Below the pieces are notes generated by a model that saw only the letters and a list, made by a program, of their open reading frames with translations, searched no databases and was not told where the DNA came from. Both the position numbers and the translations under genes were made by a program. This document shows positions 18,614 through 24,270 of a stretch of DNA of 58,223 nt, in pieces. Origin of the DNA: an uncultured Spirochaetales bacterium. Lineage in GTDB: Bacteria > Spirochaetota > Spirochaetia > Sphaerochaetales > Sphaerochaetaceae. Position 1 is the first letter of the stretch. Each line of letters begins with the position of its first letter. Location of the stretch: NCBI GenBank assembly GCA_949295675.1, contig CASFMA010000067.1, positions 1 to 58,223 of the forward strand. The letters run 5' to 3'.

Positions 18614-19255
18614 TCATCTGATGACCATCGGGAACTGGAGCTCGTAGAATATCTGCTCAAGCTCCAGCGCTATGTTGATATTGTGTATCACGACAGGATC
18701 CTGCCCTTCCTTTGCAGGATGCGGCTTGAGCGTTATAGGCGAGAAGTTGAGTATTCCGCTGATCCCGGCTTCGAAAAGCTTTTCTGCCGTATCGGCCGCA
18801 GCTGATTCCGGCACTGTGATGATCGCGACTTTGACGCCAAGCGCGCTGACTATCTCATCAAGGCGCGACATAGGGTATACAGGGACAGGATTCGAGGCAT
18901 CTGCATAGACTATAGGGTCTGTATCGAAGCCCGCGACTATCCTTATCCCGTCAGGCTCGAAGCCGGAGTAGTGCATAAGGGCCTTTCCAATGCGCCCGCA
19001 TCCGATTATGATGACGTCCTGCTCATCTCCCTTTCCCAGTATTATGCTGAGCTTGTCTATTAGCTCTGTTATGTCATATCCGCCTCTTTTCTGCCCATGG
19101 ATCTCCAACAATGAGAAATCCTTCCTCACTACTGCAGCCGAAACGCCGGCCGCGTCAGCAAGATTGTGCGCAAAGACCTTTTCCAAACCTATGGCTCTGA
19201 GTCTATTAAGTGCACGGTAGTACCTTGTAGTTCTTATCAGCATCTCACTATTCAT
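18614..19255 (-). CDS. rex: Redox-sensing transcriptional repressor Rex
   Basis: 213 residues, the normal Rex length. The N-terminal winged helix (about 1-60) includes NLADAAGVSAAVVRKDFS; the Rossmann domain has the NADH-binding IIIGCGRIGKAL (about 83-94) and a domain-swap C-terminal helix LELEQIFYEL. Rex senses the NADH/NAD+ ratio and represses fermentation and hydrogenase genes. The wing reads LEIHGQKRGGYDI instead of the common GEFGKRGVGY, so its operator may differ from TTGTGA-type boxes. GAGGAA lies 6 nt before the ATG. The divergent neighbour is the hydrogenase operon, an obvious candidate target. Confidence 0.94.
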   Translation of the reverse strand: MNSEMLIRTTRYYRALNRLRAIGLEKVFAHNLADAAGVSAAVVRKDFSLLEIHGQKRGGYDITELIDKLSIILGKGDEQDVIIIGCGRIGKALMHYSGFEPDGIRIVAGFDTDPIVYADASNPVPVYPMSRLDEIVSALGVKVAIITVPESAAADTAEKLFEAGISGILNFSPITLKPHPAKEGQDPVVIHNINIALELEQIFYELQFPMVIR

Positions 19256-19343
19256 GACAATTCCTCTGATTTATGTGATTATGAGTACATTAAATAGATT
19301 TTTATGTCAATAAATTATTAATAATGTTACACATGTCTGTTTC

Positions 19344-19372
19344 TTGAAAGATTCAACGGCATTGGATAGAAT
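19344..19372 (+). promoter_or_regulatory. Promoter of the hydrogenase operon
   Basis: TTGAAA (19344-19349), a 17-nt spacer and TAGAAT (19367-19372). Transcription should start near 19379, followed by AAAGGAGG (19392-19399) before hndA. Confidence 0.75.
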
Positions 19373-19377
19373 CCAAT
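19344..19377 (+). promoter_or_regulatory. Two inverted repeats over the hydrogenase -35 and -10 boxes
   Basis: TTGAA-AGA-TTCAA (19344-19356) covers the -35 and ATTGGAT-AGA-ATCCAAT (19361-19377) covers the -10. Both have perfect arms and the same AGA spacer. This is repressor-operator geometry. Rex is the likely candidate because its gene is divergent, but neither repeat matches the classical Rex box. Confidence 0.55.
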
Positions 19378-19403: not shown

Positions 19404-19868
19404 ATGGCTCAAAGCATATTCTCCGATGAGCTTAATGCCTATATTTCCGAATGGAAAGGAAAGCCGGGCAATCTCATCATGATTCTGCACAGGGTCCAGG
19501 AGGAGTTCGGGTATGTTTCCCGCGAGGCTGCTGAAGAGGTTTCAAGGCAGCTGGGTATCCCGATGGCGTCAATATGGGGAGTGCTCACTTTCTATCATTT
19601 CTTCAAGCTCAACAAGCCAGGCAAGTACAATATCCAGGTATGTCTCGGCACTGCGTGCTACCTTAAGGGCGGCGATATGATTGTCGAGGAGCTGGGCAAG
19701 GAGATAGGCCTTGATGTCGGTGGGCTTACAGAGGACGGGAAGTTCTCGCTTGAGGCGGTACGCTGTGTCGGCTGCTGCGGACTTGCGCCTGTCATGACCA
19801 TATCTGGTGAAGTCTTCGGCAAGGTGACGAAGGATCAGATACCGGGAATACTGGATAAGTTCGCCTGA
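19404..19868 (+). CDS. hndA: Electron-bifurcating hydrogenase subunit A (NuoE-like)
   Basis: 154 residues, a NuoE/24-kDa thioredoxin-like [2Fe-2S] protein. Cluster ligands are C80 and C85 (CLGTAC) and C121 and C125 (CVGCC). In NAD-dependent [FeFe] hydrogenases this subunit works with the NuoF-like flavoprotein to exchange electrons with NAD(H). The start is the ATG at 19404 after AAAGGAGG. Its last base overlaps the start of the next gene. First gene of the hydrogenase operon, downstream of a palindrome-covered promoter. Confidence 0.93.
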   Translation: MAQSIFSDELNAYISEWKGKPGNLIMILHRVQEEFGYVSREAAEEVSRQLGIPMASIWGVLTFYHFFKLNKPGKYNIQVCLGTACYLKGGDMIVEELGKEIGLDVGGLTEDGKFSLEAVRCVGCCGLAPVMTISGEVFGKVTKDQIPGILDKFA

Positions 19869-20353
19869 TGGAAGTCTTCGATCTCATCCTTGAGGCTGTT
19901 GAGAACAGCGTTGAAGCCGGGGCTTCTGCAGTAGAGGCCACTGTGGAGATCATGGATGGGAGATGCAGGGTTAGCGTCGTTGATGATGGAGATGCCTGGA
20001 TTCCAGACAATCCATTTGAGAAGGGATGCTCAACCAAGGGACGCGCAAGGGGACTTGGGCTGGCTGAGATCGCCGAGGCATCTGGGGGAAACTGCTCCCT
20101 CGTCCGTGATGGCGGCGTTACCAGGCTTGAGTTCTGTGCGACGGGGCTGGAGGACAGCGGGAGGCTTTCAGACTCGCTCCTGCCTATATTCCTATTCCCT
20201 GCTGATATATCGTTGACAGTCAATATGTCCGGGAAGAGCTTCGCGCTCTCTACCGGTGAGCTCAGGGCGCATGATGCGTTCCCTGACAGGGCCGGAGCCA
20301 TCGGAAGATTCAAGGAGATGGCAAGGCTTAAAGAAGGAGAGATCTATGGCTAA
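19868..20353 (+). CDS. GHKL-type ATP-binding protein in the hydrogenase operon
   Basis: 161 residues. A single histidine-kinase-like ATPase domain: N-box ILEAVENSVEAGA near the N-terminus, G1 VVDDGDAW, and G2 STKGRARGLGLAEIA. There is no dimerisation histidine, so it is not a kinase of the usual type; anti-sigma-like or chaperone-like roles are possible. Similar genes lie between the NuoE- and NuoF-like genes in hydrogenase operons of other anaerobes, but the function is not established. The last 50 residues show no family. It overlaps both neighbours. Confidence 0.75.
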   Translation: MEVFDLILEAVENSVEAGASAVEATVEIMDGRCRVSVVDDGDAWIPDNPFEKGCSTKGRARGLGLAEIAEASGGNCSLVRDGGVTRLEFCATGLEDSGRLSDSLLPIFLFPADISLTVNMSGKSFALSTGELRAHDAFPDRAGAIGRFKEMARLKEGEIYG

Positions 20354-20726: not shown

Positions 20727-22637
20727 ATGGGTTTCAAGAACTATATTCTCGTATGTGGAGGTACAGGATGCGAGTCATCCCGTTCCGATCAGATCTATCA
20801 TTCGCTTATAGATGAGGCCCAGGCCCAGGGTGTTGCCGATCAGGTCCAGGTCATAAAGACAGGATGCTTCGGATTCTGCGAGCAGGGACCTATAGTGAAG
20901 GTCCTTCCTGAGGATTCTTTCTATGTCCAGGTCAAGCCTGAGGATGCAAAGGAGCTTATCGCTGAGCACGTCATTAAGGGACGCGAGGTGACCAGGCTTC
21001 TCTACAGCAAGGCCCCAAGGAAGGCCTATGAGGAAGTAGAGGACATCAAGTTCTATCAGAAGCAGCTCAGGATTGTCCTCCGCAACTGTGGTTCCATCGA
21101 TCCTGAGAATATCGATGAATATATTGCTGCAGATGGCTATAAGGCCCTTGAGAAGGTCCTTTTCGATATGACTCCTGATCAGGTGATCGATGAGCTCAAG
21201 ACAGCTGGCCTGAGAGGAAGAGGCGGCGCAGGCTTCCCGACATGGATGAAGTGGAACTTCACCAAGCAGGCCGAAGGCGATGAGAAGTATGTGGTCTGTA
21301 ACGCTGACGAAGGCGATCCGGGCGCATACATGGACCGTTCTACGCTTGAGGGCGATCCGCATTCAGTGCTTGAGGCCATGACGATCTGCGGACACACGAT
21401 CGGCGCGCATCATGGGTATATCTACATCCGCGCTGAGTATCCTCTTGCCATACATCGTCTTGAAATCGCAATGAAGCAGGCCAGGGAGTACGGGCTTCTC
21501 GGAAAGGATATCCTTGGTTCAGGCTTTGACTATGATATCGAGATAAGGCTTGGTGCAGGCGCATTCGTATGCGGTGAGGAAACAGCTCTCCTCCAGTCCA
21601 TCGAAGGCCATAGGGGAATGCCTCAGCCACGTCCGCCATTCCCGGCAGTGAAAGGTCTGTGGGGCAAGCCGACAGTCATAAACAATGTAGAGACATGGGC
21701 TAACGTAGCGCAGATAATCAACAAGGGCGGTGAATGGTTTGCCTCGATCGGCACAGCAGACAGCCATGGAACGAAGGTATTCGCGCTTACCGGCAAGATC
21801 TGCAATTCAGGCCTCGTCGAGGTCCCGATGGGAACGACGCTCCGTGAGATCGTATATGATATCGGCGGCGGCATAGCCCATGGCAAGAAGTTCAAGGCTG
21901 TGCAGACAGGCGGTCCTTCAGGCGGTGTCATCACTGAGGAGAACCTTGATACTCCTATTGATTTCGGCGGTCTTCAGAAGATCGGCTCCATGATGGGCTC
22001 AGGCGGAATGATCGTAATGGACGAGGATGATTGCATCGTCGATGTCGCCAAGTTCTATCTCAACTTCACCGTTGACGAGTCATGCGGAAAGTGCGCACCA
22101 TGCCGCATCGGAGGAAAGAGCCTCTGCAACATCCTTGAGAAGATAACGCAGGGCAAGGGAGAGCCTGAGGATATCAAGCAGATCCAGCAGATTGCCCATG
22201 CGATGAGGATCGGATCACTCTGCGCGCTTGGCCAGACTGCTCCAAACCCTGTCCTTTCAAGTCTAAGGTACTTCCCTGAAGAGTATCAGGCGCATATCCA
22301 TGACAAGAAGTGCCCATCAGGCAAGTGCAAGAAGCTCATAAGCTATGAGATCAATCCTTCCAAGTGCATTGGATGTACAGCTTGCTCGCGCAAGTGTCCT
22401 GTCGGTGCCATTTCCGGAGAGGTCAAGAAGCCTCATAAGATCAATGGCAATGTATGTATCAAGTGCGGAGTCTGCAAGGAAACCTGTAAGTTCGGCGCAA
22501 GTGAGATTCACGAGGAGGCTTTGAATGATTCATTTAACCATACAAGGAATAGAAGTAGAGGTTGCAGAGGGGACAACTGTGCTGGAGGCTGCCAGGAAAG
22601 CCGGCATAAGGATCCCGACGCTCTGCTATCATCCTGA
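20727..22637 (+). CDS. hndC: Electron-bifurcating hydrogenase flavoprotein subunit (NuoF-like)
   Basis: 636 residues in three parts: an N-terminal thioredoxin-like [2Fe-2S] domain (C10, C15, C47, C51); a NuoF domain with NAD/FMN-binding GLRGRGGAGFPTWMKW and NADEGDPGAYMDR and the 4Fe-4S motif ESCGKCAPCR; and two 4Fe-4S motifs, CIGCTACSRKCP and CIKCGVCKETCK. It oxidises or reduces NAD(H) and is the likely flavin bifurcation site. Homologues normally stop soon after the last cluster motif; here the frame runs 113 bp into hndD, adding a Cys- and Arg-rich tail of about 37 residues. Confidence 0.93.
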   Translation: MGFKNYILVCGGTGCESSRSDQIYHSLIDEAQAQGVADQVQVIKTGCFGFCEQGPIVKVLPEDSFYVQVKPEDAKELIAEHVIKGREVTRLLYSKAPRKAYEEVEDIKFYQKQLRIVLRNCGSIDPENIDEYIAADGYKALEKVLFDMTPDQVIDELKTAGLRGRGGAGFPTWMKWNFTKQAEGDEKYVVCNADEGDPGAYMDRSTLEGDPHSVLEAMTICGHTIGAHHGYIYIRAEYPLAIHRLEIAMKQAREYGLLGKDILGSGFDYDIEIRLGAGAFVCGEETALLQSIEGHRGMPQPRPPFPAVKGLWGKPTVINNVETWANVAQIINKGGEWFASIGTADSHGTKVFALTGKICNSGLVEVPMGTTLREIVYDIGGGIAHGKKFKAVQTGGPSGGVITEENLDTPIDFGGLQKIGSMMGSGGMIVMDEDDCIVDVAKFYLNFTVDESCGKCAPCRIGGKSLCNILEKITQGKGEPEDIKQIQQIAHAMRIGSLCALGQTAPNPVLSSLRYFPEEYQAHIHDKKCPSGKCKKLISYEINPSKCIGCTACSRKCPVGAISGEVKKPHKINGNVCIKCGVCKETCKFGASEIHEEALNDSFNHTRNRSRGCRGDNCAGGCQESRHKDPDALLSS

Positions 22638-24270
22638 TCTCAAGCCGTTCGGTTCATGCGGTCTTTGCGTATGCAAGCAGGAAGGATCTTCAAAGATCAT
22701 CCGCGCATGCTCGACACCTGCGGCTGAAGGGATGAAGATCATAACGCATGACCAGGACCTTTATGAGGTGAGAAGGACGATACTCGAGCTGACGATGAGT
22801 ACGCATCCATCATCATGCCTGCTCTGCACGAAGAACAACAAATGCGAGCTGCAGAAGCTTGCTATAGAGTATGGAGTGCGTGAGCAGCCATTTGAGGTCA
22901 GGCTTGCCGAGGATAAGAAGGACCGCTCTACGGGAGCTGTTGTCCTTGATCCTGAGAAGTGCATCAAGTGCGGACGCTGCGTTCAGGTCTGCCAGGGCCT
23001 TCAGGGGGTATATGCGCTGGAGTTCATCGGACGTGGAGACAAGACCACGATGAGTCCTGCAGCGTCTCTTCCTCTTGGTTCCTCACCGTGCATCAAGTGC
23101 GGGCAGTGCATCACTCATTGCCCTGTAGGTGCAATCTATGAGCAGGATCAGACAAATGACCTGATGAAGGCGATTGCAGATCCTGAGAAGGTTGTGGCTG
23201 TACAGATAGCTCCTGCTGTAAGGGTCGCGATAGGCGAGGAGTTCGGAATGAAGCCAGGAGATGTATCGACAGGAAAGCTTTATACAGCTCTTCGCCGTCT
23301 TGGCATCGATTACGTCTTCGACACCAATTTCGGAGCTGATCTCACGATCATGGAAGAGGGCTATGAGCTTCTTGGCAGGATAAAGAATGGCGGTGTGATG
23401 CCTCAGATCACTTCATGCTGCCCGGGCTGGATAGACTATGTTGAAGAGTACTATCCAGAGCTTCTTGACAATCTGTCATCGGCCAAGAGCCCTATGATGA
23501 TGCAGGGTGCCATAACCAAGACCTATTGGAGCGAGAAGTCCGGAATAGACAAGAAGAAGATCTTCTCTGTCGCTATAATGCCATGTACGGCCAAGAAGCA
23601 TGAGATCAGGAGAGATGGAGAGCATGCGTCATCATCAGGATACTATGATGTTGACCTTGTGCTTACGACAAGGGAGCTTGCGCGTCTCATCCTGTCGCGC
23701 GGCCTTGATTTCGCATCGCTTCCTGAGAGCGAGGCTGACAGCCCTATCGGCGAGTATACTGGAGCAGGCACGATCTTCGGCGTGACCGGAGGTGTCATGG
23801 AGGCTGCTCTCCGTACAGCTTACTATGGGCTGACAGGGAAGGAGCTTGCAGATCCTGAGATAAAGCTTGTCAGAGGCATGGATGAAGTGAAGCGCGGTGA
23901 GGTCGATGTGAATGGCCGCAAGGTGCGCGTCGCGGTTGTCCATGGCATGAGCAATGCCAAGTCGCTTCTTGAGAAGATCAAGGCTGACAAGGCTGCCGGC
24001 AAGGAAAGCGATCTGGACTTCATAGAGATCATGGCATGCCGTGGCGGCTGCATAGCCGGAGGCGGACAGCCTTATGGCACGGATGATGAGGTCAGGGAGG
24101 AGCGTATCGCAGGCCTTTATACAGATGATGAGAAATCTGCAAAGAGATGCTCTCATCAGAATCCTTCGATACAGAAGCTCTACAAGGAGTACCTCGGGGA
24201 GCCTCTTTCAGAGAAGGCCCACCATCTCCTCCATACAGAGTACCATCAGATTCCGATTTACAAGGACTGA
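22525..24270 (+). CDS. hndD: [FeFe] hydrogenase catalytic subunit
   Basis: 581 residues. Domains in order: a plant-type [2Fe-2S] ferredoxin (C34, C45, C48, C62), a His-ligated 4Fe-4S motif (H94, C98, C101, C107), two 4Fe-4S motifs (C146-C156 and C189-C199), then the H-cluster domain with L1 TSCCPGW (297-303), L2 MPCTAKKHE (352-360) and L3 MACRGGCIAGGGQP near 500. This is the trimeric or tetrameric NAD-linked type that makes H2 from NADH and reduced ferredoxin. GGAGG lies 6 nt before the ATG. The HydEFG maturases are not in the window. Confidence 0.96.
   Translation: MIHLTIQGIEVEVAEGTTVLEAARKAGIRIPTLCYHPDLKPFGSCGLCVCKQEGSSKIIRACSTPAAEGMKIITHDQDLYEVRRTILELTMSTHPSSCLLCTKNNKCELQKLAIEYGVREQPFEVRLAEDKKDRSTGAVVLDPEKCIKCGRCVQVCQGLQGVYALEFIGRGDKTTMSPAASLPLGSSPCIKCGQCITHCPVGAIYEQDQTNDLMKAIADPEKVVAVQIAPAVRVAIGEEFGMKPGDVSTGKLYTALRRLGIDYVFDTNFGADLTIMEEGYELLGRIKNGGVMPQITSCCPGWIDYVEEYYPELLDNLSSAKSPMMMQGAITKTYWSEKSGIDKKKIFSVAIMPCTAKKHEIRRDGEHASSSGYYDVDLVLTTRELARLILSRGLDFASLPESEADSPIGEYTGAGTIFGVTGGVMEAALRTAYYGLTGKELADPEIKLVRGMDEVKRGEVDVNGRKVRVAVVHGMSNAKSLLEKIKADKAAGKESDLDFIEIMACRGGCIAGGGQPYGTDDEVREERIAGLYTDDEKSAKRCSHQNPSIQKLYKEYLGEPLSEKAHHLLHTEYHQIPIYKD

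Follow-up and report, generated by a model that had tools for sequence, protein, structure and literature searches.

A conserved inverted repeat beside rex as the likely Rex operator of a spirochaete hydrogenase locus

The rex-hnd intergenic region and the palindromes on the hnd promoter

The window analyzed here, a stretch of 58,223 nucleotides, comes from an uncultured Spirochaetales bacterium, and the relatives named below are metagenome assemblies of uncultured Spirochaetaceae and Sphaerochaetaceae. It carries rex1 (18614..19255, minus strand), which encodes a redox-sensing transcriptional repressor Rex of 213 amino acids (aa), and, in divergent orientation across a gap of 148 bp, hndA (19404..19868, plus strand), the first gene of the hnd operon, encoding a NuoE-like 2Fe-2S subunit (PF01257). 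The two genes are divergent neighbors in all 30 same-genus loci first fetched. The operon ends with a group A6 [FeFe] hydrogenase (22525-24270; NF040763, 801 bits against a cut-off of 765), a match that bears out an earlier note, made from the sequence of the window, in assigning it as an NADH-dependent [FeFe]-hydrogenase operon. The second hnd gene (19868-20353) encodes a small histidine-kinase-type ATPase protein with weak matches to PF02518 and NF008298, possibly a regulator inside the operon.

The product of rex1 exceeds the NCBIfam cut-offs for NF003996 (194.2 bits, cut-off 138) and NF003995 (173.1 bits, cut-off 126), as well as those for PF06971 and PF02629, corresponding to a winged-helix N terminus and a Rossmann NAD(H) domain. 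Its IIGCGRIG motif (GxGxxG) aligns with the same motif of the solved Rex proteins, to which Rex1 shows matches at E values down to 5e-32. By profile and domain tests, Rex1 is thus a member of the Rex family, as the earlier note had it, and its DNA binding would be expected to be released by NADH. The wing sequence had also been described as atypical. It does differ from that of the solved Rex proteins, but it is not peculiar to the lineage: of 12 orthologues examined in outgroups (L032-L043), 11 share the type G(Q/N)KRGGY. A perfect TTGTGAATTCATTCACAA site occurs in one of these 11, L035, so that a new operator is not to be predicted from the wing by itself.

A sigma-70 scan, together with alignment of the relatives, places the hnd promoter at TTGAAA (-35; 19344..19349, plus strand) and TAGAAT (-10; 19367..19372, plus strand), separated by 17 bp; this is the top match of the scanned stretch (10 of 12 letters). 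Both boxes are kept across the aligned gaps, the -35 reading TTGNAA or TTGCTA in most relatives. Two palindromes without strand lie on these boxes. The first, TTGAA-AGA-TTCAA (5+3+5; 19344-19356, arms 19344-48 and 19352-56), contributes the -35 as its left arm plus one base, and the second, ATTGGAT-AGA-ATCCAAT (7+3+7; 19361-19377, arms 19361-67 and 19371-77), has the -10 straddling its center. Their letters and positions are as the earlier note gave them; both are perfect, and each has AGA as its spacer. That note raised the possibility of a lineage-specific Rex operator here. On this proposal, Rex bound to the pair would block RNA polymerase, and the perfect symmetry and the exact overlap with the promoter boxes favor it.

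We found 77 perfect 5+3+5 repeats (1.3 per kb) and three perfect 7+3+7 repeats in the 58-kb window. When the 148-bp gap was shuffled 3000 times with its dinucleotides preserved, 16% of the shuffles held some perfect repeat with arms of at least 7 and a spacer of 0-8, 2.3% held one with arms of at least 7 and a spacer of 3, and 0.6% held an equal-spacer pair within 40 bp. The pair is therefore mildly unusual, by a description that was picked after the pair had been seen.

The palindromes were then sought in 42 same-genus gaps. All five arm pairs of the first are present in one gap (G000) and four of five in two; in the three nearest relatives, 3 or 4 of the 5 pairs remain, with uncompensated changes in all three. 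The second retains 7/7 pairs in three gaps (G000, G004, and G028), 6/7 in G060, and at most 5/7 in the other 38. Hence, the check set by the earlier note, namely whether the repeats recur in relatives with the same Rex, went against the proposal: they are intact in only 1/42 and 3/42 gaps, and they are lost in relatives whose Rex is 70-93% identical. Moreover, of 40 genomes searched, three contain the 17-mer palindrome (center left free), at hnd only and without a further copy, whether at rex or at adhE, and it is a different motif of the gap, described below, that shows both conservation and recurrence across a regulon. Even with the second palindrome intact in three close relatives, we rejected the pair as a Rex operator, a reading that now seems scarcely credible.

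That the second palindrome might instead be bound by a different regulator, confined to the subclade of G000, G004, and G028, is suggested by the complete set of arm pairs in those three genomes but is likewise very improbable. The whole stretch up to the start codon is almost identical in the three, so the symmetry has not been specially kept; G060, closely related to them, differs at one arm base; and the palindrome has no other copy in the genomes. Because they are not conserved in relatives, we judge both palindromes accidental and probably without function, their symmetry being incidental to an hnd promoter of the ordinary sigma-70 type.

The 24-bp inverted repeat adjoining rex

About 50 bases upstream of the palindromes, adjoining rex, lies a 24-bp inverted repeat, TTTATGTGA-TTATGA-GTACATTAA (19270..19293, plus strand), with the core TGTGA-N6-xxACA. 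It matches perfectly the genus pattern TTWATGTGA-N6-GTAYATTAA, which matches nowhere else in the window even when as many as 3 mismatches are allowed. The repeat was found in all 42 rex1-bearing genomes, always 13-15 bp from the rex start, and ATGTGA is invariant among its distinct sequences (38/38). In G011, where hndA is present and rex is undetectable, there is no 24-bp repeat at hndA. Conservation, together with the matrix matches across the regulon reported below, indicates that this repeat is most likely a lineage-specific binding site for Rex. A lineage-specific Rex operator, the possibility raised in the earlier note, is thus likely, and as far as sequence tells it sits at 19270-19293, elsewhere in the 148-bp gap than the palindromes at 19344-19377, which is the second outcome that the note had set against its own proposal.

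The repeat overlaps a tentative rex promoter, recognized from sequence and alignment, that consists of a putative -35, TTGACA (19305..19310, minus strand), and, at a spacing of 15, a -10-like TGTACT within the operator (19284-19289, minus strand). The latter box reads TATACT in many relatives; the putative pair is not retained in L013, L015, L016, L018, and L019.

The canonical Rex operator is TTGTGAA-N4-TTCACAA. Counted by hand, 19270-19293 agrees with it at 8 of 14 letters, and a scan with the consensus picks another place. The best canonical candidate in the gap, 9/14 at TTATTAATAATGTTACAC, is equaled by 60% of shuffles and was rejected. With half-sites that depart from the consensus, the predicted site is a variant operator, not a canonical Rex site. 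We also inspected 12 outgroups of the same class. Five of them (L032, L035, L037, L040, and L043) have canonical-like sites, agreeing at 10-14 of 14 letters, at a distance of 15-21 bp from the start of rex; the 24-bp repeat of the genus occupies the corresponding place, which speaks for Rex as its binder. The other seven have no canonical site above chance at that distance.

Recurrence at other operons and spacing to the promoters

To score sites elsewhere, we used a matrix trained on the rex/hnd sites only, with a threshold of 11 or more. A site reaching this threshold lies upstream of adhE in 26/32 genomes and in 5/6 further genomes; counted over the rex1-bearing genomes, 7/38 adhE promoters fall below 11. 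In genomes without rex1, the site is found at 0/5 adhE promoters, the adhE genes there being diverged (about 50% identical). Likewise, an operon of ferredoxin and [FeFe]-hydrogenase-like genes that follows a second rex gene, rex2, has the site in 28/29 genomes and 6/6 further ones, and so do nfn/gltA-like genes in the 3/3 cases examined, these genes having themselves been found by the pattern. Within the hnd-proximal 75 bp, on the other hand, 0/36 sequences score above 6. A pattern search of 40 genomes returned 60 matches, versus 15 for the reversed pattern, and 51 of the 60 are at rex/hnd or at the adhE, hydrogenase-like, and nfn-like operons; a match at G021:C14:75044, placed by letter identity to a fetched site, is outside the 51. 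Thus rex, adhE, the hydrogenase, and related NADH operons share the motif, as the members of a Rex regulon should, and the motif is usable for reading the predicted regulon of a wholly uncultured genus.

Several side observations were made at these loci. The adhE site lies inside the 3' end of an upstream membrane-protein-like reading frame in several genomes (e.g., L092, 2992-3015), and coding constraint could add to its conservation. A weaker Rex1-like site occurs past the 3' end of a phosphofructokinase-like gene (L101, L102, and L103). The adhE promoters of G023:C10 (L119) and G014:C12 (L138) are almost identical in otherwise distinct genomes; G023 is listed as 6% contaminated, and G023:C10 may be a foreign contig. 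In G012 (C28:108942-111596), adhE has an internal TAG stop in a copy that is otherwise 95% identical.

The distance from the operator center to the hnd -35 falls into clusters of 62-65 (6 genomes), 73-76 (12 genomes), and 85-88 bp (21 genomes), with single values of 91 (1 genome) and 214 (2 genomes). The clusters cover 39 of 42 genomes, the three set aside being G027 (91, no clear -35) and G001 and G014 (gaps of 294 and 299 bp; distance 214). Automatic promoter picks were wrong in places, such as L083 and L025 (hnd), L139 (adhE), and L069, L064, L169, and L159 (rex2 operon), and for G067, where the automatic pick was an overlapping hexamer, we placed the promoter manually at TTGCAA, following its sister G034. 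The clusters were noticed on the initial genomes, before G065, G066, G067, G068, and G071 were added; these, the five later genomes with new sequences, all fall within them, G071 having the spacing of its relative G017. When spacing was reconstructed by parsimony for 39 genomes, on a Rex1+HndA tree that has weak nodes, there were 7 changes of 1-3 bp, 12 of 9-14 or 21 bp, and 0 of 4-8 bp under either rooting. When indels were left unconstrained in simulations on the tree, the observed periodicity was reached in 0 to 2.8% of used runs, depending on the indel model, with few usable runs under some settings. In contrast, the distance from the hnd -35 to the start codon is nearly continuous from 50 to 60, with one value of 47. 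For sites found with sound promoter picks, the distance from the operator center to the -10 is 101, 111, or 119-122 at adhE, and it is mostly 106-110 at the rex2 operon. The stepwise spacing suggests a helix-face constraint, in which changes come in whole turns of the helix, and such a constraint would imply contact between the bound protein and RNA polymerase, or else a loop.

These data bear on two other accounts of the 24-bp repeat. It might serve rex autoregulation only, hnd being driven by a nearby promoter of its own and the distances being patterned by chance; the position of the site, 13-15 bp off the rex start in all 42 genomes, overlapping the putative rex -10 and far from the hnd start, accords with this. 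We regard it as unlikely, since the same motif lies upstream of the adhE, hydrogenase-like, and nfn-like operons, since the spacing changes skip 4-8 bp, and since the unconstrained simulations seldom reach the observed periodicity. Alternatively, the motif could be real and be bound by an activator of the CRP/FNR family, from which its upstream, helix-phased position would follow. The CRP consensus core, TGTGA-N6-TCACA, coincides with the Rex core, so that the core and N6 spacing of the motif are also compatible with CRP, and activators of this type typically use upstream phased sites. Against this, the cNMP_binding domain PF00027 went undetected in 11 of 40 genomes, 9 of them with the site, in draft assemblies that are incomplete, though four of the site-bearing genomes (G009, G014, G029, and G062) are at least 90% complete; furthermore, the motif is found wherever rex1 is present and is not found where rex1 is absent. 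PF13545, with matches in 40/40 genomes (over the cut-off in 27/40, many of them partial), is too unspecific to serve as a test for CRP/FNR. Given the nine site-bearing genomes in which no PF00027 protein was found, we rejected a CRP/FNR-type binder, which we consider quite improbable.

A candidate mechanism and the second Rex

Our preferred reading, which we hold with fair confidence, is that the palindromes are incidental and that the regulatory element of the gap is the lineage-specific Rex operator at 19270-19293, acting as follows. Rex ordinarily represses its targets when NADH is low. At low NADH, Rex1 would bind the 24-bp inverted repeat, and since the putative rex -10 lies within this repeat, rex itself would be expected to be repressed. 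Bound Rex1 would also control hnd, over a distance of about 62-88 bp to the -35, by contact with the polymerase or by a DNA loop, either of which would require the operator to be on a particular face of the helix; the sign of this control could be repression or activation. Both adhE and the hydrogenase-like operon that follows rex2 would be served by the same operator, at similar distances. Repressors do not usually bind as far out as about -97 to -133 from the inferred start, and this counts against the reading. Conservation, the motif shared among operons, and the stepwise spacing are what was observed; from them we infer Rex1 as the binder, its response to NADH, and the contact.

The second paralogue, rex2, is ~33% identical to rex1, and it stands behind ispH in L109, the sole annotated locus. 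It is missing in G000, G004, G030, G060, and G065, and also in G011. Near the adhE start, a TATCGATA-type box (ATCGAT) is present in 38/43 promoters (e.g., L111, L135, and L146), all 38 from genomes with rex2, and the promoters that lack ATCGAT are exactly those of G000, G004, G030, G060, and G065, all without rex2. For G065, the prediction arose before its promoter was fetched and had not been recorded beforehand. The five genomes form two tree groups, {G000, G004, G060} and {G030, G065}, implying about two co-loss events, and G028, sister of the first group, has kept both rex2 and TATCGATA. In the window's own genome (78% complete), the Rex1 site alone is left at adhE. This pattern of co-occurrence suggests that TATCGATA is the Rex2 operator. 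Upstream of rex2 within the genus, ATCGAT was tried as a candidate and rejected, its occurrences being scattered. By eye, ATATCGATA-type (ATCGAT-type) boxes were seen before rex2 in two outgroup promoters (L047 and L048), as autoregulation would need.

A fuller reading, in our estimate a little short of an even chance, has Rex1 work at a distance of ~9 to 12 helical turns ahead of the start site and at a fixed phase, either activating or forming a loop; the adhE promoter would be shared between Rex1 and Rex2, the latter of which would read the unrelated TATCGATA at the start site, a code lost together with rex2. If so, two NADH sensors with separate DNA codes would be stacked on a single fermentation gene, adhE, and the loss of TATCGATA together with rex2 would supply a second Rex specificity and a natural example of duplicated redox sensors avoiding cross-talk. 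Should the helical phasing hold, it would represent a long-range mode of action for Rex. For the hydrogenase, the search for Rex control would shift to what are probably the right 24 bases, 19270-19293.

Comparison with known Rex systems

Our literature search, which lay outside the Ravcheev 2012 comparative study, found nothing on spirochaete or Sphaerochaeta Rex operators, nor on Rex with ATCGAT; for Treponema it turned up a butanol review, and the remaining papers dealt with other organisms. The proposed system resembles known ones in the protein family, in the core register TGTGA-N6-xxACA, in having the operator beside rex, and in its targets, which include adhE, the [FeFe] hydrogenase, and rex. 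It differs from canonical operators in that the genus half-site starts with A instead of T, the right half is degenerate (GTAYATTAA), and the flanks TTWA/TTAA are conserved; furthermore, the genus sites lie far upstream of the target promoters and not on them. A Rex operator of the form TTGTTAA-N4-TTAACAA is quoted in one report (PMC8457756), which also describes in Clostridium thermocellum a pair of Rex proteins, Rex_2471 and Rex_1799. Two Rex paralogues per genome are likewise found here; the passages of that report considered here give no separate operator for the second Rex, whereas in this genus a TATCGATA box is lost together with rex2. In Caldicellulosiruptor bescii, according to another account (PMC8579813), Rex activates the membrane-bound hydrogenase operon from a site 45 bp upstream of the start. 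The genus studied here shares with it a Rex site, here a predicted one, that precedes a hydrogenase promoter and would be consistent with modes of action besides blocking. Where C. bescii has one site at -45, however, the sites of this genus are found at three operons, lie at about -97 to -133, and are spaced in steps.
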